Shown piece by piece: positions 40,030 through 56,672 of a stretch of 64,000 bases of DNA. Source of the stretch: Neisseria weaveri (GTDB lineage Bacteria; Pseudomonadota; Gammaproteobacteria; Burkholderiales; Neisseriaceae); NCBI RefSeq assembly GCF_900638685.1, contig NZ_LR134533.1:1426001-1490000 (forward strand). The letters are read 5' to 3'. A program made the position numbers and the translations under genes. A model generated the notes under the pieces. It had not been told where the DNA came from and did no database searches. It saw only the letters and a program-made list of their open reading frames with translations. Position 1 is the first letter of the stretch. Each line of letters opens with the position of its first letter.

Positions 40030-40155
40030 TTTCGACTCTTTCTCTATTGATAGATGAAAACAAAGCGGATTATAGCTGAAGGCGGTATGCGGTAACAGGC
40101 CGTCTGAAACACATTTCGGGTACAATGCTGCTTTTCTTGATTACGTTGAAACATT

Positions 40156-40932
40156 ATGTTGAAAATCATCTCCGCCAATGTGAACGGCATCCGTTCCGCT
40201 TATAAAAAAGGCTTCCACGAATACATCGCCGCGTCGGGCGCCGACATCGTTTGCGTGCAGGAATTGAAAGCGCAAGAGCCGGATTTGTCGGACGATATGA
40301 AAAATCCGCACGGTATGTATGGCGTATGGCATTGCGCCGAAAAACGCGGTTACAGCGGCGTGGCGATATACAGCAAGCAACGCCCCGACAATGTGCAAAT
40401 CGGCATGGGCATTGAAGAGTTCGACAGCGAAGGCCGTTTTGTGCGTGCCGATTTCGGCAAATTGAGCGTGATTTCGCTTTATCTGCCCAGCGGCACCAGC
40501 GCACCGGAGCGGCAGGAATTGAAATACCGCTTTCTGGATGCGTTTTACCCCATGTTGGCCGAGATGAAAGCGGAAGGCCGCGATATCGTGGTGTGCGGCG
40601 ACTGGAACATCGCCCATCAAAACATCGACTTGAAAAACTGGAAAGGCAATCAGAAAAATTCGGGCTTTCTGCCGGAAGAACGCGCATGGATAGGCAAAGT
40701 GATTGCCGACTTGGGCTGGGTGGATATGTGGCGCAAACTGTATCCCGAAGTGCCCGGCTACACTTGGTGGAGCAACCGCGGGCAGGCGTATGCGAAGGAT
40801 GTGGGGTGGCGTATCGACTACCACATGGTCACGCCCGATCTGGCAGCCAAAGCGGTGCAGGCGCATGTGTATAAAGATGAAAAATTTTCCGACCATGCGC
40901 CGCTGGTGGTGGAATACGATTATTCGATCTGA
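40156..40932 (+). CDS. AP endonuclease / exodeoxyribonuclease III family (NApe-type)
   Basis: Cleaves DNA at abasic sites in base excision repair. The 258 aa begin MLKIISANVNGIRSAYKKG and contain the EEP-fold catalytic residues in VQELKAQ, GDWNIAHQNID and SDHAPLVVEYDY. Sequence closely resembles meningococcal NApe, the AP-endonuclease paralogue (the other, NExo, is a 3' end-processing enzyme). Monocistronic; its terminator is built from a foreign-dialect DUS, the left edge of the island at 40939. Confidence 0.93.
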   Translation: MLKIISANVNGIRSAYKKGFHEYIAASGADIVCVQELKAQEPDLSDDMKNPHGMYGVWHCAEKRGYSGVAIYSKQRPDNVQIGMGIEEFDSEGRFVRADFGKLSVISLYLPSGTSAPERQELKYRFLDAFYPMLAEMKAEGRDIVVCGDWNIAHQNIDLKNWKGNQKNSGFLPEERAWIGKVIADLGWVDMWRKLYPEVPGYTWWSNRGQAYAKDVGWRIDYHMVTPDLAAKAVQAHVYKDEKFSDHAPLVVEYDYSI

Positions 40933-40938
40933 TGCGTT

Positions 40939-40972
40939 TTCAGACAGGCATGGGCAATCCTGCCTGTTTTTA
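40939..40972 (+). terminator. Terminator made from a TGCCTGTCTGAA-type DUS
   Basis: TTCAGACAGGCA (40939-40950), then ACAGGCA pairs with TGCCTGT (40961-40967), followed by TTTTATT. The first arm is a full 12-base uptake sequence of the wadsworthii dialect. Confidence 0.8.
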
Positions 40973-41013
40973 TTGGCTTACAATCAATCCACTTACATAA
41001 TAAATAACGATAC

Positions 41014-41070
41014 CGTCATATACGGGCTTATCCAGGTATGACGAGCGTACTGTTTTTAAGTTGATTAACC
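41014..41070. repeat. Degenerate copy of the ATACTCGGG palindromic repeat
   Basis: CGTCATATACGGGCTTA...GGTATGACGAGCGTACTGTTT resembles one arm plus flank of the repeat at 45629-45707 (GTATGACGAATGTGCTGTTT). Confidence 0.55.
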
Positions 41071-41079
41071 ATATCAAGC

Positions 41080-41523
41080 TCAAGGTTTGCGCGGCTGCGC
41101 ATTTTTAGAGACCGCATCAAGATAATCCATAAGGAAGCAGCTGTCATTTTCAACAATATTGTCAATGCGGTACACAACGAAGCGGTCGGATGGGAAATTG
41201 CGGCTGCTTTCTTTGATTTCCGGAGAATCCGCGGCCACCCTCAGCCAGAAATTCGCGCGGGAATGGTGCGGGGAGCGGGGCGGCAGCTTTTTTATCAAAG
41301 CGCGGACTTTTGCTTCGTCTTCCGATTGTTTGAACACCGCAACCCAGTCGGAAGCGGGTGAAGAGCAGGGAGCCAGAATGACCCGGCCGTTTTCTTCGGA
41401 AGCCAAAACGGAGAAAATATCATGGAAATCATCTGCTTCGGAGGTTTGATGGTGTTCGGATTTTGCTGCGTTTGCCAGTGATAAAGACAGCGATAATAAT
41501 GCGGCCAGTAGAGTGAGTTTCAT
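41080..41523 (-). CDS. Secreted protein of unknown function
   Basis: 147 aa with a clear signal peptide (MKLTLLAALLSLSLSLANAA) and a mature domain of about 127 residues with two cysteines (ILAPCSSP; ENDSCFLM) that could form a disulfide. I recognise no family. The mature N-terminal half is acidic; the middle is basic (IKKLPPRSPHHSRANFWLR). Start at 41523 after discarding 18 upstream codons. It lies wholly between wadsworthii-dialect DUS copies, so it was probably imported with them. Confidence 0.75.
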   Translation of the reverse strand: MKLTLLAALLSLSLSLANAAKSEHHQTSEADDFHDIFSVLASEENGRVILAPCSSPASDWVAVFKQSEDEAKVRALIKKLPPRSPHHSRANFWLRVAADSPEIKESSRNFPSDRFVVYRIDNIVENDSCFLMDYLDAVSKNAQPRKP

Positions 41524-41602
41524 GTTTGTCAGTATGAGTTGTGATGGTTTCGGAAATGTGCCGTCATAGTAGAACACGATTATTCGATTTAATACAAACT
41601 TT

Positions 41603-41636
41603 TTCAGACAGGCATTCGTTATAATGCCTGTCTGAA
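41603..41636. repeat. Inverted pair of TGCCTGTCTGAA DUS
   Basis: TTCAGACAGGCA (41603-41614) and TGCCTGTCTGAA (41625-41636) as a perfect palindrome around a 10-base loop that contains most of a TATAAT box (41620-41625). It sits between divergently starting genes. Confidence 0.9.
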
Positions 41637-41659
41637 TTCTGATTTAGAGGAGGAACGAT

Positions 41660-41857
41660 ATGAAAGTTTACCGTATGCTTACCGGCCCGGACGATGCTGT
41701 GTTTTGCCGCCGCGTAACCGAAGCCTTGCAGCACGGCTGGGATTTATACGGCAGCCCGACCATGACCCACACGCCCGACGGCGTGCAGGTGGGGCAGGCC
41801 GTAGTAAAAGATGTGGAAGGTGTTTACGACCCCGACAAACCTCTGCATGAATACTGA
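41660..41857 (+). CDS. DUF1737 domain protein
   Basis: 65-aa protein of the DUF1737 type (MKVYRMLTGPDDAVFCRRVTEALQHGWDLYGSPTM). Members are small and uncharacterised. GAGGAGG precedes the ATG at good spacing. The next gene starts 15 bp on, with one wadsworthii-dialect DUS filling the gap. Confidence 0.88.
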   Translation: MKVYRMLTGPDDAVFCRRVTEALQHGWDLYGSPTMTHTPDGVQVGQAVVKDVEGVYDPDKPLHEY

Positions 41858-41869
41858 TGCCTGTCTGAA
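41858..41869 (+). repeat. TGCCTGTCTGAA DUS between two genes
   Basis: Exact 12-mer occupying the space between the DUF1737 stop codon and the next start at 41873; last copy of the foreign dialect. Confidence 0.92.
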
Positions 41870-41872
41870 ACC

Positions 41873-42406
41873 ATGAAACCGGGCGATTTAGAAGACTTAA
41901 CCCTATTCTTGATACGCGATGCGGACGAACCTGCCATGTGGATAGACCGCTGGGCGGTCAGCTATCCGACCGTGCGGATGGTGGAAATATCGCGCCGTCA
42001 AAGTATCCGGCAATGGCAGGATATTGTTCAGACGGCATGGAGTGGTATCTGTGGGCGGAATGTCGCGGTGGTTGCTCACGGCGCAGGTGTGTCGGGCTGG
42101 CTGGCGTGGCTGTATTTGGCCGATGTGAATATGCAGAAGCGTATCCGCAATATGATGCTGGTGTCGCCGCTGCAAAACGCGTTTCCCGATGACGAGTGCC
42201 ATACTTTGCAACGGGTGCGCTGCCATTGTAAAACGGCGTTGGTGATCGGGGAGCAAGATGACGATTGTCCGCAAGCGTGGGCGCGGGAAATGGCGCGGCT
42301 TTGGGGCGCGCGCTTGCTGGTGTCGCCACATGAAGGCCGTCTGAATGTGCCGTTGCACGGTTGGCAGTGGGGGATGAAGTTGTTGCAGGAAATGCTGCTG
42401 GATTGA
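41873..42406 (+). CDS. RBBP9/YdeN-like alpha/beta hydrolase, active site degraded
   Basis: 177 aa with the fold pattern of RBBP9 serine hydrolases: the nucleophile-elbow region VAVVAHGAGVSGWLAW (62-79) and the C-terminal CPQAWAREMARLWGARLL block. In the family the elbow is AHSxG and the end reads GHIN; here they are AHGAG (Gly70 for Ser) and GRLN (Arg156 for His). Asp130/131 remains. The Arg codon is part of an in-frame DUS (42334-42345). It probably cannot hydrolyse esters. No SD is seen before the ATG, so the true start could differ. Confidence 0.8.
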   Translation: MKPGDLEDLTLFLIRDADEPAMWIDRWAVSYPTVRMVEISRRQSIRQWQDIVQTAWSGICGRNVAVVAHGAGVSGWLAWLYLADVNMQKRIRNMMLVSPLQNAFPDDECHTLQRVRCHCKTALVIGEQDDDCPQAWAREMARLWGARLLVSPHEGRLNVPLHGWQWGMKLLQEMLLD

Positions 42407-42584: not shown

Positions 42585-43571
42585 TTAATGTGCCGTCGTT
42601 TTCATACACGCGACTTGATGTGCGGCGGAGCCTTGCAGCACGGGTTTGGTTTCGGCGCAGCCGTTGTCGGCCTGTGGGCAGCGGGTACGGAATACGCAGC
42701 CGCTGGGCGGGTTGATGGGGCTGGGCAGGTCGCCGGGCAGAAGTTGGATGGTTTTGCTGCGCTCGGCTTCCGGGTCGGGCAGCGGTGCGGCAGACATTAA
42801 GGCGCGGGTGTAGGGGTGGGCGGGGTTGCCGTACACTTCGTGATCGGTGCCGAGTTCGATGGCATTGCCCAGATACATCACCAGCACGCGGTCGGAAATG
42901 TGTTTGACTACCGATAAATCGTGGGCGATGAAAATCAGGGTCAGCCCCATTTCTTTCTGCACTTCTTTCAACAGGTTGACGACTTGTGCCTGAATGGAAA
43001 CGTCGAGCGCGGAAACGGGTTCGTCGCAAATAATCAGCTTGGGTTTCAGAATCAGGGCGCGGGCGATGCCGATGCGCTGGCATTGGCCGCCTGAAAATTC
43101 GTGCGGGTAGCGGTTGATGAGGTTGGGCAGCAGGCCGACTTTGGCCATCATGTCTTTGACCTGCTTTTCGATTTCGGCTTTTTTGAGCTTGGGGTAAAAG
43201 GTTTTCAGCGGCTCGGCGATGATGTCGCCCACGGTCATGCGCGGGTTGAGCGAGGCCAGCGGGTCTTGGAAAATCATTTGGATTTCACGGCGTTTCAGGC
43301 GCATGGCGGCGGGGGAAAGGGCGGTTAAGTCTTCGCCTTGCCAGATGATGTTGCCGCTTTTGGCTTTGACGAGACCGATGATGGCGCGGGCAAGGGTGGA
43401 TTTGCCGCAGCCGGATTCGCCGACGACACCGAGGGTTTCGCCGGCTTGAAGGTCGAACGATACGCCGTTGACGGCTTTGAGGGTGGCGGGTTTTTGCCAA
43501 AACCAAGCGTTGTCGGCTTTAACGTCGAAGGTAACGTGTAAATCGCGTACGGATAATAGGGTTTCGCTCAT
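42585..43571 (-). CDS. oppF: Oligo/dipeptide ABC transporter ATP-binding protein (OppF/DppF)
   Basis: One of two ATPases driving peptide uptake. The 328 aa have Walker [10 protein letters not shown], signature [15 protein letters not shown] and Walker [13 protein letters not shown], plus the C-terminal oligopeptide-type Cys cluster ([14 protein letters not shown]) typical of OppD/F. Its ATG overlaps the oppD stop by four bases. Last gene of the opp operon. Confidence 0.94.
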
Positions 43572-44554
43572 GCCTGTGCTCCCTGTAAATATTCAGACGG
43601 CCTGTGGCAGGCGCGTTTGCGGTGGTCGTGCAGGATTTCCAATGCCGGTGCTTCGCGGCGACAGATGTCTTCGACGTGCAGGCAGCGGTTTTGGAAGGGG
43701 CAACCGGGCGGCAGGCTGGTGAGGTTGGGCGGGTTGCCGGGAATGGTGGACAGGATGTCGGCGGTTTCGTCCATGCGCGGCACGGCACCGAGCAGGCCGA
43801 TGGTGTAGGGGTGGCTGGGGCGGTAGAAAATGTCGTCCACTTTGCCGTATTCCATGGTGCGGCCGGCATACATCACCAACACTTGGTCGCAAATGCCGGC
43901 AACCACGCCTAAATCGTGGGTAATCATGATGATGGTGGTGCCGAAATCGCGTTTCAAATCATTGAGCAACGCCATGATTTGCGCCTGCACGGTAACGTCG
44001 AGCGCGGTGGTGGGTTCGTCGGCAATCAAAAGTTTGGGGCGGCACAACAAGGCCATGGCAATCATCACGCGCTGGCGCATGCCGCCTGAAAATTCGTGCG
44101 GATACATGCCGATGCGCTTTTTGGCTTCGGGGATTTTCACGGCTTCGAGCATACGCACGGATTCGGCCCACGCTTCGGCTTTGCCCATGCCTTTGTGCAG
44201 GCGCAGCACTTCGGTAAGCTGGTCGCCCACGCGCATATAGGGGTTGAGCGAGGTCATCGGGTCTTGGAAAATCATGGCGATTTGTTCGGCGCGGATTTTG
44301 TTTAACTCGCGCTCGGGCAAGCCAAGGATTTCGCGGCCGTTGAAAACGGCGGAGCCGGAAGTTTGACCGTTTTTGGCCAGCAAGCCCATGATGGCGAAGG
44401 CAGTTTGCGATTTGCCGGAGCCGGATTCGCCGACGATGCCCAGCGTTTCGCCTTCGTGCAGATCGAAATTGAGTTTGTTGACCGCGGTAACGAGGCCGTC
44501 TTCGGTTTTGAAGCGGACTTCGAGGTCTTTTACTTGCAGTAAGGGTGTGCTCAT
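43568..44554 (-). CDS. oppD: Oligo/dipeptide ABC transporter ATP-binding protein (OppD/DppD)
   Basis: Second ATPase of the peptide importer. The 328 aa have Walker [24 protein letters not shown], Walker [13 protein letters not shown] and the Cys-rich C terminus ([14 protein letters not shown]). Start at 44554 ([10 protein letters not shown]) after AAGGA. The longer frame up to 44581 merely translates a DUS and is not used. Coupled to oppF. Confidence 0.95.
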
Positions 44555-44621
44555 TGTTTTTTCCTTTTCAGACGGCCTCAAGCATCAAGAGGCCGTCTGA
44601 AAATATTGATTTTTCTTGGAT

Positions 44622-45539
44622 TTATCTGTCTTTCGGGTCTAACGCGTCGCGCAGGCCGTCGCCGATGAAGTTAAAGCAGAACAGCGTAACCACCAAAAAC
44701 ACGGCGGGCACGAGCAGCTGCCACGGCGCAATCTGCATGGTGTTCGCGCCGTCTTGCAACATTGCGCCCCAGCTTGTCATCGGCTCTTGCACGCCCAAGC
44801 CCAAGAAACTTAAAAACGATTCAAACAGAATCATGCCCGGCACCAGCAGCGAGGCGTAAACCACCACTACGCCCAGCACGTTGGGCACGATGTGGCGGAA
44901 CACGATGTGGCGGTTGGATACGCCGCACACATGGGCGGCTTCGATAAATTCTTTACGTTTCAGGCTCAAGGTTTGGCCGCGCACGATCCGCGCCACGTCG
45001 AGCCACGACACCATGCCGATGGCCACGAAGATAAACGCCAGATTGCGGCCGAAAAACGTAACCAGCAGAATCACGAAAAACATAAACGGAAACGCGTTCA
45101 GAATCTCTAAGAAACGCATCATCAGCATATCGGTTTTGCCGCCGAAAAAGCCCGACACCGCGCCGTACACCACGCCGATAATGACGGCCACCAGCGCACC
45201 GGCCACGCCTACCATCAACGAAATGCGTCCGCCCACGGCCACGCGGGTAAACAGGTCGCGGCCGAGCGAGTCGGTGCCGAAATAGTGTTTGTTGGCCCAT
45301 TCGGGCGGCATCTGCATCGCGCCCCAGTCGGTGTGGGCATAGTCGTAAGGCGCAACAAGCGGCGCAATCAATACGAACAGGCAGATCAGCAGCAACACCA
45401 GCCCGCTTGCCAGCGCAGCGCGGTTATGGCGGAAACGCCGCCATGCGTCCTGCCACAGGCTGCGGCCTTTTACATCGGGCAGGTTTTGGTCTTCCAAGGC
45501 GGCGGCTAATGCGGCTGCCTGTTTTTTACTTACCATCAT
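44622..45539 (-). CDS. oppC: Oligo/dipeptide ABC transporter permease OppC
   Basis: Inner-membrane permease, 305 aa, with an N-terminal cytoplasmic tail, a periplasmic loop with GTDSLGRDLFTRV and the EAA-loop ATPase contact near EAAHVCGVSNRHIVFRHIVPN. Six membrane helices. The gap to oppB (220 bp) contains a large palindromic repeat. Confidence 0.95.
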   Translation of the reverse strand: MMVSKKQAAALAAALEDQNLPDVKGRSLWQDAWRRFRHNRAALASGLVLLLICLFVLIAPLVAPYDYAHTDWGAMQMPPEWANKHYFGTDSLGRDLFTRVAVGGRISLMVGVAGALVAVIIGVVYGAVSGFFGGKTDMLMMRFLEILNAFPFMFFVILLVTFFGRNLAFIFVAIGMVSWLDVARIVRGQTLSLKRKEFIEAAHVCGVSNRHIVFRHIVPNVLGVVVVYASLLVPGMILFESFLSFLGLGVQEPMTSWGAMLQDGANTMQIAPWQLLVPAVFLVVTLFCFNFIGDGLRDALDPKDR

Positions 45540-45628
45540 GGTTGTGTGCCTTATGGTTTTTTGTTTTATCTACAAGATGAGGCCGCCTGAAAAGCGGCAA
45601 TCGTTAAACTGAATATCCTATAACTGTA

Positions 45629-45707
45629 TCGTCATACTCGGGCTTGACCCGAGTATCTTAGGGTTCTGTGAGCTTGGAGATACTCGGGTCAAGCCCGAGT
45701 ATGACGA
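45629..45707. repeat. Paired inverted palindromic repeat between oppB and oppC
   Basis: Two 30-bp arms (45629-45658 and 45678-45707), perfect reverse complements, each itself palindromic (ATACTCGGG-CTTGA-CCCGAGTAT). It resembles dRS3-type neisserial repeats in layout but has a different core. On transcripts from oppB it would form a strong hairpin. Confidence 0.85.
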
Positions 45708-45759
45708 ATGTGCTGTTTATCAACCGCTTGGGCTAACGGTTTTCAGACGGCCTCTCGAA

Positions 45760-46680
45760 TCAATAACGGATTTTCGGATCAATCACCGCATACAGAATAT
45801 CGACCACGGCGTTGAACACAATCGTGAGCACGCCCACGAGAATGGTCAGGCTCAACACCATGCCGTAATCGCGGTTCAGCGCACCGTTCACAAAAAGCTG
45901 GCCGATACCGGGCAGGCCGAAAATGGTTTCAATCACAATCGAGCCGGTGATGATGCCCACAAACGCAGGGCCGAGATAAGAAATCACCGGCAGCATGGCG
46001 GGGCGTAAGGCGTGTTTCCATACGATATAGCGGGTAGGCAGCCCTTTGGCGCGGGCGGTGCGGATAAACGGACTGTTCATCACTTCGATCATCGAGCCGC
46101 GCATAATCCGTGCAATGCTCGAAATATAGGCAATCGCCAACGCCGCCACCGGCAGCACCAGATTGCTCACGGCTCCGTCGTTCCAGCCGCCGGCGGGCAA
46201 CCATTTGAGCCAGATGGCGAAAATCAGCACCAGCAGCGGTGCTTTCACAAAGCTGGGAATCACCACGCCCGTCATGGCCACGCCCATGGTGAGGTAGTCG
46301 AGCCATGAATTTTGCTTCAAGGCCGCCAGCACGCCGAGCAGCACGCCGACAACCAGCGCGATAATAAAGGCGTACAGGCCGATTTCGAGCGACACGGGAA
46401 AGGCTTGCGAGAGCAGCTCGTTAACCGTGTAGTCTTTGTATTTGAACGACGGCCCGAAATCGCCGTGCGCCAGTTGTTTCAGATAATTGAGATATTGCAG
46501 CCAGATGGGGTCGTTGAGATGGTATTTGGCTTCGATGTTTGCCAGCACCGCGGGCGGCAGGTTGCGCTCGCCGGTAAACGGGCTGCCCGGAGCCAAACGC
46601 ATCATGAAAAACGATACGGTAATCAGAACCAGCAGCGTGGGTATGGCTTCCAACACGCGCCTGATGATGAATTTCAACAT
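45760..46680 (-). CDS. oppB: Oligo/dipeptide ABC transporter permease OppB
   Basis: Inner-membrane permease, 306 aa, with the N terminus MLKFIIRRVLEAIPTLLVL, the family RLAPGSPFTGER loop, and the EAA-type loop TARAKGLPTRYIVWKHALRPA. Ends VDILYAVIDPKIRY. A DUS sits 20 bp beyond the stop. Confidence 0.95.
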   Translation of the reverse strand: MLKFIIRRVLEAIPTLLVLITVSFFMMRLAPGSPFTGERNLPPAVLANIEAKYHLNDPIWLQYLNYLKQLAHGDFGPSFKYKDYTVNELLSQAFPVSLEIGLYAFIIALVVGVLLGVLAALKQNSWLDYLTMGVAMTGVVIPSFVKAPLLVLIFAIWLKWLPAGGWNDGAVSNLVLPVAALAIAYISSIARIMRGSMIEVMNSPFIRTARAKGLPTRYIVWKHALRPAMLPVISYLGPAFVGIITGSIVIETIFGLPGIGQLFVNGALNRDYGMVLSLTILVGVLTIVFNAVVDILYAVIDPKIRY

Positions 46681-46765
46681 AAGCGAACTCTAACGGTGGT
46701 TTGTACTTTCGGCCCGGCCGTTTCAGACGGCCTGTGGTTGTTGTAGATAAACGTGCTTTTCAGGC

Positions 46766-46811
46766 AAAGGCCGTCTGAAAACAAACAAACTTGTTTTCAG
46801 ACGGCCTTTTT
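46766..46811 (-). terminator. Inverted DUS hairpin between oppA and oppB
   Basis: AAAGGCCGTCTGAAAACAA mirrored. On the minus strand the T run after it is short, so it may be a leaky terminator that lowers permease expression relative to the binding protein (inference). Confidence 0.75.
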
Positions 46812-46816
46812 GGGTT

Positions 46817-48478
46817 TTAGTGTTTCAGGATTTTCCAGTTTTTGATTTGCCAGTTGTCCATCGGGTCTTTGGTTGAATAGCCGTCAACATAAGGCTTCAC
46901 CAAACGGGCATTTACATAGTGGAAAACGAAAATGGTTGCCGCATCTTTATCCATCACGGCTTCGGCTTGGCTGTACAGCTCGCCGCGTTGCTCGGGCGTT
47001 ACATCGCCGCTGAGCGTTTTCAGTATCAGATTGTCGAATTCGGCACTTTGATATTTGCCGTAGTTGCTGCTGTTGTCAGACTTAAACGTGTTCAGGAAAG
47101 TTGAAGCTTCGTTGTAGTCGGCACACCAGCCGCCGCGCGCCATTTGGTGTTTTTGGTTGCGGCGGGTATCGAGATAGGTTTTCCACTCTTGGTTCACCAG
47201 ATTCACATTCACAAAACCCAATGCCTCTTTCCACAAGGCGGCAGCGGCCACGGCATTTTTCTTGTGGTTTTCATTGGTGTTGTAGAGCAGCTCGAAATTC
47301 AAAGGCTTAGACTCGCTGTAACCGGCTTCGGCCAGCAGTTTTTTCGCTTCTTCGATGCGTTTGGCCTTATCCCACGATTTCCATTCCGGCACAAATTCCT
47401 TCATGCCTTGGGCGGCAGGCGGCGTGAATTGGTAGGCGGCCGTTTCTCCGCGCCCGATCACTTTATCTACCATGGTTTCGCGGTCTAAAGTGAGTTGCAG
47501 CGCCTTGCGCACTTTCACATCGTTAAACGGCGGCTTGGTGTGGTTGAACTCGTAGTAATAGCTGCACAGATAGGGGGCAACTTTCATCTGACCGCCCATC
47601 TCTTGCTGCAACGATTTGAATTGTTCGGTCGGAATGTCGTTATACGTTACGTCCACTTCGCCCGCTTTGAAGCGGCTCATATCGGTAGGCGGCGAAGAAA
47701 TCGGCAGCAGGGTGGCTTTGGTGATGGTGGTGTTGGCATCGTCGAAATAATTCGGGTTGCGCTCCAACACGATTTGGCTGTTTACGTCCCACGTTTTCAC
47801 GGTGTAGGGGCCGTTTACCACGATATTGGCGGGAGAAGTCCATTTGTCGCCGAATTTTTCCACCGTGGCTTTATGCACGGGCTTCACGGAAGTGTGGATC
47901 AACATGTCGGGGAAGTAAGGCACCGGCTCTTCCAGCGTGATTTCCAGCGTTTTCGCATCCACAGCTTTCACGCCCAAGCTGTCGGGCTTGGCTTTGCCTT
48001 CGATGATTTTGGCGGCATTCAGAACTTTGGCATCAGCCAGATAGCTGGCATAAGGCGACGCGGTGGCCGGGTCGGTAACGCGGCGGAAGCTATATGCGAA
48101 ATCTTCGGCGGTAACAGGGTCGCCGTTGCTCCATTTGGCATCACGCAGGGTAAATTTCCATACTTTGTTATCGGCACTTTCCCATTTTTCCGCCATGCCC
48201 GGAACGGTGTTGCCGTCGTTATCGGTAGAAGTGAGGCCGACTAAAATTTGGCGCAGAATACCCGATTCGGGTACGCCCGATACTTTGTGCGGATCGAGCG
48301 ATTCGGGCTCGGCACCGTTGTTGATGACGATTTCTTGTTTTTCAGCCGCCTCGGTGGAAACGGGCGCCGTATTTTGGTTATTCTCCGCGCTGTTTCCTCC
48401 GCCGCAAGCCGCCAATCCGAAAGCGGTGGCTACGGCCAACAGCAGGGCTTTTTGCTGAAAAAAGGTGTGTTCTTTCAT
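46817..48478 (-). CDS. oppA: Periplasmic oligopeptide-binding lipoprotein OppA
   Basis: Substrate-binding protein of the peptide importer. The 553 aa have a lipobox FGLAAC (Cys25), a Gly/Asn-rich linker and the SBP family 5 fold (EPESLDPHKVSGVPESGILRQILVGLTSTD; LRDAKWSNGDPVTAEDFAYSFRRVTDP). The strong SD AGGAG before the ATG suits the high level needed. First gene of oppABCDF; bioB diverges upstream. Confidence 0.96.
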   Translation of the reverse strand: MKEHTFFQQKALLLAVATAFGLAACGGGNSAENNQNTAPVSTEAAEKQEIVINNGAEPESLDPHKVSGVPESGILRQILVGLTSTDNDGNTVPGMAEKWESADNKVWKFTLRDAKWSNGDPVTAEDFAYSFRRVTDPATASPYASYLADAKVLNAAKIIEGKAKPDSLGVKAVDAKTLEITLEEPVPYFPDMLIHTSVKPVHKATVEKFGDKWTSPANIVVNGPYTVKTWDVNSQIVLERNPNYFDDANTTITKATLLPISSPPTDMSRFKAGEVDVTYNDIPTEQFKSLQQEMGGQMKVAPYLCSYYYEFNHTKPPFNDVKVRKALQLTLDRETMVDKVIGRGETAAYQFTPPAAQGMKEFVPEWKSWDKAKRIEEAKKLLAEAGYSESKPLNFELLYNTNENHKKNAVAAAALWKEALGFVNVNLVNQEWKTYLDTRRNQKHQMARGGWCADYNEASTFLNTFKSDNSSNYGKYQSAEFDNLILKTLSGDVTPEQRGELYSQAEAVMDKDAATIFVFHYVNARLVKPYVDGYSTKDPMDNWQIKNWKILKH

Positions 48479-48535
48479 ATTGTTCTCCTTTTAATTCAAT
48501 TGGTTTTAATCAATAAAACTTTTCAATCGGGTCTA

Positions 48536-48593
48536 TTTTTTTTAATTTAAGTAAAGCTGTCAAGAAAAATTTTACGTTAACATTGTTAACAAT
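48536..48593 (-). promoter_or_regulatory. oppA promoter region with ATTGTTAACAAT palindrome
   Basis: On the minus strand TTGACA (48564-48559), 17 bp, AAAAAT. Just upstream is a perfect 12-bp palindrome ATTGTTAACAAT (48582-48593) next to another GTTAAC (48576-48581). A repressor or activator site is possible; I do not know the factor. Confidence 0.45.
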
Positions 48594-48729
48594 ACGGCTT
48601 CTTTACACGAATGCGCCCGCCGCAAAACCGCTTTTTACAAACGGTGCAACCCGCCTGCCCGCATCATCATCTTCCCGATAGAAGCTGTTGAAGCGGCAGA
48701 ATATTCCCGTTAAACTGCCCGCACTGCCG

Positions 48730-48767
48730 ATGCCGTCTGAAAATATTTAAGCCGTTTCAGACGGCAT
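48730..48767. repeat. Inverted pair of ATGCCGTCTGAA DUS
   Basis: ATGCCGTCTGAA (48730-48741) and TTCAGACGGCAT (48756-48767) between the diverging oppA and bioB genes. Both carry the AT form of the pathogenic species rather than the AG form common here. The rest of the 48594-48860 gap has no gene. Confidence 0.88.
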
Positions 48768-48860
48768 CAACAGGCAAACCGCTGCTGCAAACATTGTGCT
48801 TGCAGTTTTGCACGTCAGCGTCATTGCGCCGCTGCGAAACCCGATAAAGAAAGACACGAT

Positions 48861-49868
48861 ATGACCGTATCCCCCGTAGCCTTGCGCCGCCAAACCGAGC
48901 GCAAGCCCCATGCTACCGCTCAATACTGGCGTAAATGCCAAGTTGAAGAACTGTTTGAAATGCCGTTTTTGGATTTGGTTTACAAAGCCGCCGCCATCCA
49001 CCGCGAACACTTCAATCCGCGCGAAATTCAGCTTTCCACCCTGCTTTCCATCAAAACCGGCGGCTGCCCCGAAGATTGCGAATACTGCCCGCAATCGGCG
49101 CACTACAATACCGGCCTCGAAAAAGCCAAAATGATGGATGTGGAAGAAATCCTCGAAAAAGCCAAAATCGCCAAATCGCGCGGCGCCAGCCGTTTCTGCA
49201 TGGGCGCGGCGTGGCGCGGCCCCAAACCGAAAGACGTAGAAACCGTGTCGGAAATCATCAAAGCCGTCAAAGGCTTGGGTTTGGAAACCTGCGGCACTTT
49301 CGGCATGCTTGAAGACGGCATGGCCGAAGATTTGAAAAACGCCGGTCTCGACTACTACAACCACAACCTCGACACCGACCCCGACCGCTACAACGACATC
49401 ATCCACACCCGCCAGCACGAAGACCGCATGGACACGCTGGGCAAAGTGCGCGGCGCAGGTTTGAAAGTGTGCTGCGGCGGCATCGTAGGCATGAACGAAA
49501 CCCGCCCCGAACGCGCAGGCTTAATCGCCAGCCTCGCCAACCTCGACCCGCAGCCCGAAAGCGTGCCGATTAACCAGTTGGTCAAAGTGGAAGGCACGCC
49601 GCTGGCCGATGCCGAAGATTTGGACTGGACGGAATTCGTGCGCACCATCGCCGTCGCCCGCATCACCATGCCGAAAAGCTACGTTCGCCTGTCGGCCGGC
49701 CGCAGCGACATGCCCGAAGCCATGCAGGCCATGTGTTTTATGGCTGGGGCGAACTCGATTTTCTACGGCGACAAACTGCTCACCACCGAAAACCCCGAAG
49801 AAGACGGCGACCGCGTGTTGATGGAAAAACTGGATCTGTATCCGTTGCAGCATCAGGCCGGTGCTTAA
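48861..49868 (+). CDS. bioB: Biotin synthase
   Basis: Radical-SAM enzyme inserting sulfur into dethiobiotin. The 335 aa have the 4Fe-4S Cys triad C69-x3-C73-x2-C76 ([13 protein letters not shown]), and the 2Fe-2S site residues in [19 protein letters not shown] and CCGGIVGM. No BirA-operator-like inverted TTGTAAACC is seen upstream. Other bio genes are absent from the window. The coding region is GC-rich. Confidence 0.97.
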
Positions 49869-49901
49869 TCTGTTGTACTCATACCGTTTGCTTCATATAC
49901 A

Positions 49902-55725: not shown

Positions 55726-56589
55726 TTAAGATTCATGTTCCGTTCCGCTTTCCACTTCCACGCGACGGGCAATGTCTTTCAGATTGGAATAACTTTCTAC
55801 CAGCCTCGGCACATCGTCCAAACTCATGGCAAACATCCATAAATAAGTGGTGAGCGAATAGATATGCCCTGCGCTGCCGTAGCCGTTTAAGGTTATCCAC
55901 ACAAAAGTAAAGCCGAACAACAAGGCCATTGCTATGCCGACGCACAGATAGCCCGCTGCTTCGCGGTTGGAAATCAAAATGCGTAGGCGGGCAACCAAGC
56001 CGAAATGCTTATGCAGCGTGGCTTCGGGAGCGGATTGAATCATGTCCACATCACGCTCCAAGCGGTTGTTGAGTTTGAAATACAGCTTTTCACTCACGCG
56101 GGAAAAGCCCGGCAGCAATATCAAAAATACCGCCAAAACCAACAGACTCAACACGCCGGCCCAAAATTCCAGTATCAAAAGCATGAAAGCCGCGCCAAAT
56201 ACCGACACCAGCGACGTGATCGCCGTAGGCAGATGCATTTCAAAAAAATCGACAAATTCCCTCGACAACGCTACACGCGCCGCGATTTCAGACGGCGTCT
56301 GCCCCTGTATGCGCTGCTTCACAATCACAGGTACGGCGATTTCGCTGTAAATGCGGGCAAATACACGCGTATCTGCGCTGCGCCGTGCCGCTCCCACCAG
56401 CCACATCAACAACACCAAAAGCGCGTAAGTCAGCGCCTGCCAGACCTTGCCCTGCATGACCGCGTTGACGGCAAAACCGCCGAACACGGGGTAAATCAGA
56501 AACAGCAGATTTTCCAAAGCCACGATACTGAACGTGAGCAACAGCTTTTTGCGGTGTGCGGTGCCGATATTTTTTAAAGTATTCCACAT
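55726..56589 (-). CDS. Stand-alone ABC-transporter six-helix membrane protein
   Basis: 287 aa carrying a type-I exporter-like transmembrane domain (six hydrophobic stretches from about 15 to 260) but no ATPase domain or Walker motif, and none in a neighbouring gene. EVESGTEHES ends the protein where a linker to an NBD would begin. Whether it works with a distant ATPase or as a pseudo-transporter is unknown. Confidence 0.82.
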   Translation of the reverse strand: MWNTLKNIGTAHRKKLLLTFSIVALENLLFLIYPVFGGFAVNAVMQGKVWQALTYALLVLLMWLVGAARRSADTRVFARIYSEIAVPVIVKQRIQGQTPSEIAARVALSREFVDFFEMHLPTAITSLVSVFGAAFMLLILEFWAGVLSLLVLAVFLILLPGFSRVSEKLYFKLNNRLERDVDMIQSAPEATLHKHFGLVARLRILISNREAAGYLCVGIAMALLFGFTFVWITLNGYGSAGHIYSLTTYLWMFAMSLDDVPRLVESYSNLKDIARRVEVESGTEHES

Positions 56590-56672
56590 GATGTTTCGGT
56601 TTTACTTCTTAATAAATACAGCCTGATGCATCGAGGCCGTCTGAAAATTTATATCTTTAGTGTAAGGATAAT

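Follow-up and report, generated by a model that had tools for sequence, protein, structure and literature searches.

In Neisseria, the similarity of uptake sequence (DUS) dialects governs uptake, and dialects have been described as an effective obstacle to recombination between species (Frye et al. 2013, PMC3630211). The same article describes TG-wadDUS, in the following wadDUS, as AT-DUS with an inserted T; the term wadDUS also occurs in PMC11316581 and PMC12616744. Frye et al. further report mucDUS on a folP fragment of N. subflava ATCC 19243 and suggest N. sicca as its donor; whether this strain is perhaps closer to N. sicca than to other N. subflava is left open by the authors. The locus presented here resembles that case, as DUS of a foreign dialect lie on a chromosomal fragment for which a donor of that dialect can be suggested. 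It differs from it in that the folP fragment consists of 7 kb with mucDUS in an AG species, and the available part of the article describes neither breakpoints nor a reciprocal import. Hughes-Games et al. (2020, PMC7371117) screened large gaps in the primary DUS and found excisable ICEs. As in the ancillary-DUS islands and ICEs of that study, minority dialects reveal foreign DNA in N. weaveri and the dialect group of its donor; unlike those ICEs, the N. weaveri tracts measure only about 1 and 8 kb, and no transfer gene was recognised in them. A further parallel is the allele exchange at penA and mtr, which is likewise short homologous exchange between Neisseria species. In the available text of PMC7371117 it is cited as occurring within compatible dialect groups, whereas the N. 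weaveri tract crosses dialects. Foreign-dialect islands are known in principle; for a short chimeric wad/AG tract with an adjoining reciprocal import, we found no precedent in print. In the titles and abstract openings searched, a scope which mostly excluded subscription journals, no wadDUS import into an AG species was encountered.

The window analysed here is a stretch of 64,000 nucleotides (64 kb), C1:1426001-1490000 of the N. weaveri genome, which consists of one contig of 2,238,481 bp. A first-pass annotation had claimed that four exact wadDUS form an island between AG-DUS and had read it as a recent homologous import. The 12-mer TGCCTGTCTGAA indeed occurs four times in the window, all copies lying within 40939-41869 on the strands and at the positions claimed, and no other copy is present in the 64 kb, even if one mismatch is allowed. 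As a control, wadDUS matches with at most one mismatch were counted in 100 dinucleotide shuffles of the window; the mean was 0.23, and none of the 100 reached 4. The dialect assignment holds as well, since N. wadsworthii 9715 contains this 12-mer in 2,100 copies. Besides these copies, the window contains 61 exact AG-DUS and 5 AT-DUS; two of the AG-DUS stand on either side of the island at 40097 and 42334, as had been stated. The features of the locus are:

40097..40108, + strand: native AG-DUS, left of the island
40156..40932, + strand: exoIII-type exonuclease/endonuclease gene (PF03372), AG-clade allele and proposed left homology arm (Pfam match, tree)
40932..41045, no strand: left transition zone, which holds wadDUS 1 and part of a dispersed repeat
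40939..40950, - strand: wadDUS 1, contributing one arm to a weak terminator-like hairpin that follows exoIII
41046..41969, no strand: proposed imported tract, in which 5 of 924 bp differ from the wad-dialect genome G005 (there C1:2442349-2443272)
41080..41523, - strand: orphan gene, 147 aa, signal-peptide-like start (GTG reading frame open from 41577)
41603..41614, - strand: wadDUS 2, which forms a perfect inverted pair with wadDUS 3 (strong hairpin)
41625..41636, + strand: wadDUS 3, second arm of the inverted pair
41660..41857, + strand: DUF1737 gene (PF08410, E 3.9e-22), DNA 99.5% identical to G005
41858..41869, + strand: wadDUS 4
41873..42406, + strand: Ser_hydrolase gene (PF06821), chimeric (Pfam match, site comparison, tree)
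42334..42345, + strand: native AG-DUS, right of the island

According to folding, the inverted pair formed by wadDUS 2 and 3 is a strong hairpin (z -7.3) and the copy at 40939 part of a weak one (z -1.8). An opposite-strand orientation is also found for all 17 close AG-DUS pairs of the window and is the usual arrangement.

The locus was compared with a set of 46 congeneric genomes, which includes that of N. weaveri itself (G000). When positions 40900-41900 (1,001 bp) were used as a query against the 45 other genomes, a full-length match was obtained in G005 alone, at 99%. The AG genome G043, N. wadsworthii 9715 (G030) and Neisseria sp. 83E34 (G037) match about 325 bp around the DUF1737 gene at 87-89%; G038, G016 and three others gave shorter matches at 71-75%, and further matches are short repeats. 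Outside the tract the similarity to G005 drops: the left flank is 73.5% identical over 3 kb, and among the listed G005 matches of at least 500 bp to the next 17.6 kb on the right, six of eight are at 70-81% and two at 93%. These flank values argue against a core-gene identity of N. weaveri and G005 near 99%. Near-identity to another lineage is thus enclosed by host-like flanks, with a sharp edge on the right and a fuzzy one on the left. The annotated junctions at about 40100 and 42334 do contain the tract; the resulting 2.2 kb are too large, as the tract comprises about 0.92 kb (41046-41969), to which a left zone of roughly 113 bp is added.

The following is established: the labels are foreign, the tract is nearly identical to a wad-dialect genome, its flanks are of AG type, a breakpoint falls within the hydrolase gene, and the chromosome has a comparable but larger block at another place. 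We conclude, with a probability of about 0.92, that a stretch from a wad-dialect Neisseria close to G005 replaced the N. weaveri spacer between exoIII and the hydrolase gene by homologous recombination; the recent import from a wad-dialect donor that had been proposed is well supported by the 99.5% identity over 924 bp and by the chimeric gene at its right edge. The import would have brought in the DUF1737 gene, the orphan gene for a secreted-protein-like product and the uptake labels of the donor. Since a near-identical copy lies in a wad-group genome, genes cross between label groups, and the dialect acts as a donor barcode, which marks imports and points to the donor group.

The nearest donor genome can be specified further. 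The Pfam match confirms the annotated DUF1737 gene, and its DNA is only 87.7% identical in N. wadsworthii, as compared to 99.5% in G005. N. wadsworthii was therefore rejected as the donor; of the "wadsworthii-dialect donor" suggested initially, the dialect stands and the species does not. In a tree of the DUF1737 gene, which is based on a short alignment of 195 nt, N. weaveri and G005 form a pair with support values of only 85/93. A grouping with AG relatives that share the wadDUS copies was not observed, the DUF1737 gene of G043 itself being only 87% identical. For the orphan protein, annotated as a "secreted unknown protein", there is no Pfam match at E 0.001; its secretion is predicted from the signal-peptide-like start. 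A protein search gave one relative, a cluster at 98% with 7 members (longest contig 1,009 bp), and in the genome searches made the DNA was found in G005 only.

The right edge can be placed within the hydrolase gene. Between 41896 and 41944, all 11 sites which separate G005 from G043 are G005-like. Between 41970 and 42013, 17 of 22 such sites are G043-like, 2 are G005-like and 3 match neither, several of these separating sites being alignment gaps in G005. At position 41884, N. weaveri deviates from G005 and matches the other three genomes in the comparison. In DNA identity, the first 97 nt of the gene are closest to G005 (99%), followed by N. wadsworthii (91%), G043 (89%) and the AG sister Neisseria sp. 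MVDL19-042950 (G017; 77%), and the remaining 434 nt are 85% identical both to G043 and to G017. A tree of the 3' part joins N. weaveri to G043 and G017 (100/99) and unites the five wad genomes in a separate clade (100/100). By site pattern, identities and tree of the 3' part, the gene is chimeric, and the right breakpoint lies between 41944 and 41970.

On the left, the transition is more gradual. Over the roughly 113 bases from 40932 to 41045 there are, depending on the alignment, 7-9 differences to G005 (92-94% identity), and the G005 counterpart of wadDUS 1 has one base changed. The exoIII gene of N. weaveri is 94.2% identical to that of G017, 93.5% to G005, 92.1% to G043 and 86.3% to N. wadsworthii. 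As identity to G005 is intermediate in the left zone and exoIII is at a similar distance from G017, G005 and G043, two overlapping events are possible at this edge. Part of the zone belongs to a dispersed repeat (40975-41077), numerous copies of which occur in wad genomes and some also in AG genomes, the longer matches being mostly at 76-82%.

The exoIII tree places G005 inside the AG clade, together with G043 (90/82), G017 (100/97) and N. weaveri (97/95), and apart from its dialect sisters N. wadsworthii and 83E34. The adjoining stretch of G005 (2443368-2447549), next to the donor tract, is 95.6% identical to the AG sister G043 and, over nearly the same range, 93.3% to G017. It contains only AG-DUS (4 copies; a fifth is at 2448076) and sits between wad-labelled stretches with 85-94% identity to N. 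wadsworthii. A further group of 5 AG-DUS is located in G005 about 7 kb left of it. These comparisons show a reverse exchange, by which exoIII and the adjoining 3.4 kb of G005 are of AG-clade origin, directly beside the tract; the wad/AG barrier is thus crossed both ways at one locus. The first 100 forward AG-DUS of G005 are strongly clustered: 67 neighbours lie within less than 5 kb as compared to 28 expected, a number reached in none of 5,000 placements. A long tract of G005 (C1:856286-929863) has 32 forward AG-DUS and is possibly a large island of AG origin.

The tract is not a lone event in N. weaveri. At 1,411-1,418 kb, a cluster of 8 wadDUS lies in a block whose 8,094 bases aligned to G005 show 97.3% identity (96-100% inside, 85-95% at the ends); the block contains one AG-DUS and one AT-DUS in addition. 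In G017 the two ends of this block adjoin, 94 bp apart, and the middle is missing. Of its six reading frames checked, five correspond to an IclR-type regulator, a GntP-type permease, an iron alcohol dehydrogenase, an aldehyde dehydrogenase and a 3-hydroxyisobutyrate-type dehydrogenase; the sixth has no match. Genes for transfer or integration were found neither among the tract genes nor among these six frames. A third block (1,541-1,544 kb; 3.7 kb, 96.9% to G005) carries both dialects in both genomes, with more AG than wad labels, and may have moved from AG to wad. A pair of wadDUS at 321 kb lies inside a block of 4.6 kb with 96% identity to G043; the G043 copy in turn matches G005 at 98%. Taken together, these four blocks hold 16 of the 31 wadDUS of the genome. 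A weaker fifth cluster at 1,218 kb has two wadDUS inside and three more beside a stretch of 2.8 kb at 96% to G005; for it no direction is claimed, because the AG genomes G023, G043 and G017 are also 91-95% identical. The block comparison covered these copies; the other ten wadDUS of the genome are a pair at 288.7 kb and singles at 47, 153, 501, 574, 615, 850, 1,003 and 2,072 kb.

For the entry of the tract, natural transformation would be the plausible route, in which case exoIII and the conserved beginning of the hydrolase gene would have served as recombination arms. Given that dialect similarity governs uptake, either a tolerant ComP of imperfect specificity or an AG-DUS on the same donor fragment would have helped the uptake of DNA with the wrong dialect. 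We consider the second variant, fragments which carry AG-DUS as well, rather unlikely, although several observations fit: in G005 an AG-DUS is found about 950 bp from the donor tract, inside the AG-to-wad exoIII import of G005; one AG-DUS lies inside the G005 donor of the 8 kb block; and AG-DUS are present in the third shared block. This proximity rests on three blocks, the third of which may have moved in the opposite direction, and is not significant by itself: judged by the forward copies in the first 1.18 Mb of G005, 14% of 924 bp stretches and 25% of 8 kb stretches do equally well by chance. Moreover, ComP of N. weaveri is odd. In its globular part it is at most 60% identical to each of 17 others aligned (at most 60% to AG versions, at most 54% to wad versions), so that an altered specificity is possible. 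The protein resembles the solved ComP structures 2m3k, 5hz7 and 2nba. Its gene (G000 C1, about 1667646) is single in N. weaveri; in 15 of 19 relatives searched, comP is accompanied by another PF16732 pilin gene directly beside it. N. weaveri and G005 constitute a natural pair for a direct test of the dialect barrier.

An explanation without import would be that the wadDUS are relics of an ancestor using the wad dialect. The genome-wide counts are of interest in this context. N. weaveri has 31 wadDUS and 2,549 AG-DUS; wadDUS is therefore not its dominant DUS, and the copies are not common genome-wide. The dialect is rare in N. weaveri, and the island is not its sole site. Simonsiella muelleri, too, combines two dialects in one genome; there, the numbers are near-equal (2,257 and 2,292 genome-wide, with 1,294 overlapping pairs; PMC3630211), in contrast to the few and clustered wadDUS of N. 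weaveri. In five genomes wadDUS exceed AG-DUS, these two dialects being counted genome-wide, and we call these genomes wad-dialect: G005 (2,095 wadDUS, 327 AG-DUS), G016 (1,920, 235), G030 (2,100, 272), G037 (2,119, 263) and G038 (1,322, 23). Seven of the 46 genomes have 27-78 wadDUS, as a relic might predict: G000 31, G017 34, G021 78, G023 37, G024 63, N. dentiae (G035) 52 and G043 27; the remaining 34 have 0-7 each. In the two of these seven examined for clustering, N. weaveri and G043, the copies are not spread as relics would be. The 31 copies of N. weaveri reduce to 24 sites if pairs less than 100 bp apart are merged, and 9 neighbours lie within less than 5 kb as compared to 1.2 expected, which none of 20,000 random placements reaches; for G043, too, the observed neighbour count was reached in none of 20,000. 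Dialect labels also allow gene flow among little-studied Neisseria to be followed across whole genomes in a simple way.

In N. wadsworthii and 83E34 the order at this locus is exoIII, DUF1737, wadDUS, hydrolase, the wadDUS being three in number, and this arrangement is accordingly native to the wad clade. In the AG sister G017 the spacer between exoIII and the hydrolase gene comprises 99 bp with two AG-DUS, in N. dentiae 85 bp with two AG-DUS; AG labels at this position are unexpected for a relic. The AG sister G043 has a DUF1737 gene and an inverted wadDUS pair here, with a third copy decayed by one base, and thereby speaks for the relic. Its DUF1737 gene is only 87-88% identical to those of N. 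weaveri and G005, however, which suggests that it probably stems from an older, separate import. As G043 also has a wad-like hydrolase start (88.7% to N. weaveri), an AG-dialect go-between for the tract is possible. What decides against the relic is the identity contrast, 99.5% to a single wad species beside 70-81% in most of the long flank matches listed, and the chimeric hydrolase gene; we regard this explanation as very improbable.

Hardly more credible is a transfer of the segment from the AG lineage, that is from N. weaveri, into G005. The AG-clade origin of exoIII and the adjoining 3.4 kb of G005 and the mostly AG-type labels of the third block would agree with such a direction. The segment itself has wad labels only, its gene order with wadDUS is common to N. 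wadsworthii and 83E34, and the start of the N. weaveri hydrolase gene is wad-like and its remainder AG-like, so that this direction was rejected in favour of an import into N. weaveri. A mobile element (ICE, phage or IS) as the carrier, for which the ICEs among published DUS-dialect islands (PMC7371117) would be a model, was rejected as very improbable, as the recognised tract genes are DUF1737, the orphan and the hydrolase start, with no integrase or transposase, and the tract stops inside a gene common to both clades, as in homologous exchange.

A more general idea, which we rate as unlikely, is that loci circulating between dialect groups carry both labels, often an AG-DUS followed by a wadDUS on the same strand, and can therefore be taken up by either group. 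If true, dialects would be leaky, and accessory genes would escape by gaining a second label. In sampled loci, 29 mixed AG-wad pairs at distances of up to 45 bp share one strand and 10 are on opposite strands, as compared to 8 and 207 for same-dialect pairs (AG-AG, wad-wad) of the same loci; in these counts AT-DUS pairs were left out, some homologous sites are counted repeatedly, and the loci are biased towards mixed regions. Among 114 wadDUS contexts from four AG genomes (G000, G021, G024, G043), an AG-DUS within 30 bp is on the same strand in 12 (10 of them upstream) and on the opposite strand in 9. This sample includes a few doubled contexts (32 for 30 copies in G000), and for G024 (20 stretches) and G021 (8 stretches) it includes only part of the copies. 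Evenly spaced 400 kb samples gave no same-strand AG-wad pair in G005 (0.43 expected) or G030 (1.01 expected) and one opposite-strand pair in G030. With such expected numbers, no genome-wide excess is shown in G005 and G030, and a general rule of bilingual pairs was rejected; the pairs are a lead, not a result. Many of the mixed pairs fall in one TonB-receptor/ABC-transporter locus common to G005, G023, G030, G037 and G043. At this locus (G043 C1:76001-95500 and relatives), parts are 97-98% identical between AG and wad genomes, and the spacers repeatedly hold AG-DUS and wadDUS in tandem.

Two further stretches of the window were conspicuous. A gene at 55726-56590 is 98.6% identical over 842 bp to N. 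wadsworthii and 91-93% to G005, G043 and G023; the G043 homologue belongs to PF13748 (ABC-transporter membrane region). Judging from these identities, the gene would represent a further cross-dialect exchange, here with no wadDUS. Within 42595-49869, two segments, of 3.0 and 4.1 kb, share 96-97% identity with the AG genome G023, although the preceding hydrolase gene reaches only about 78%, a pattern which suggests mosaic exchange within the AG dialect, too.
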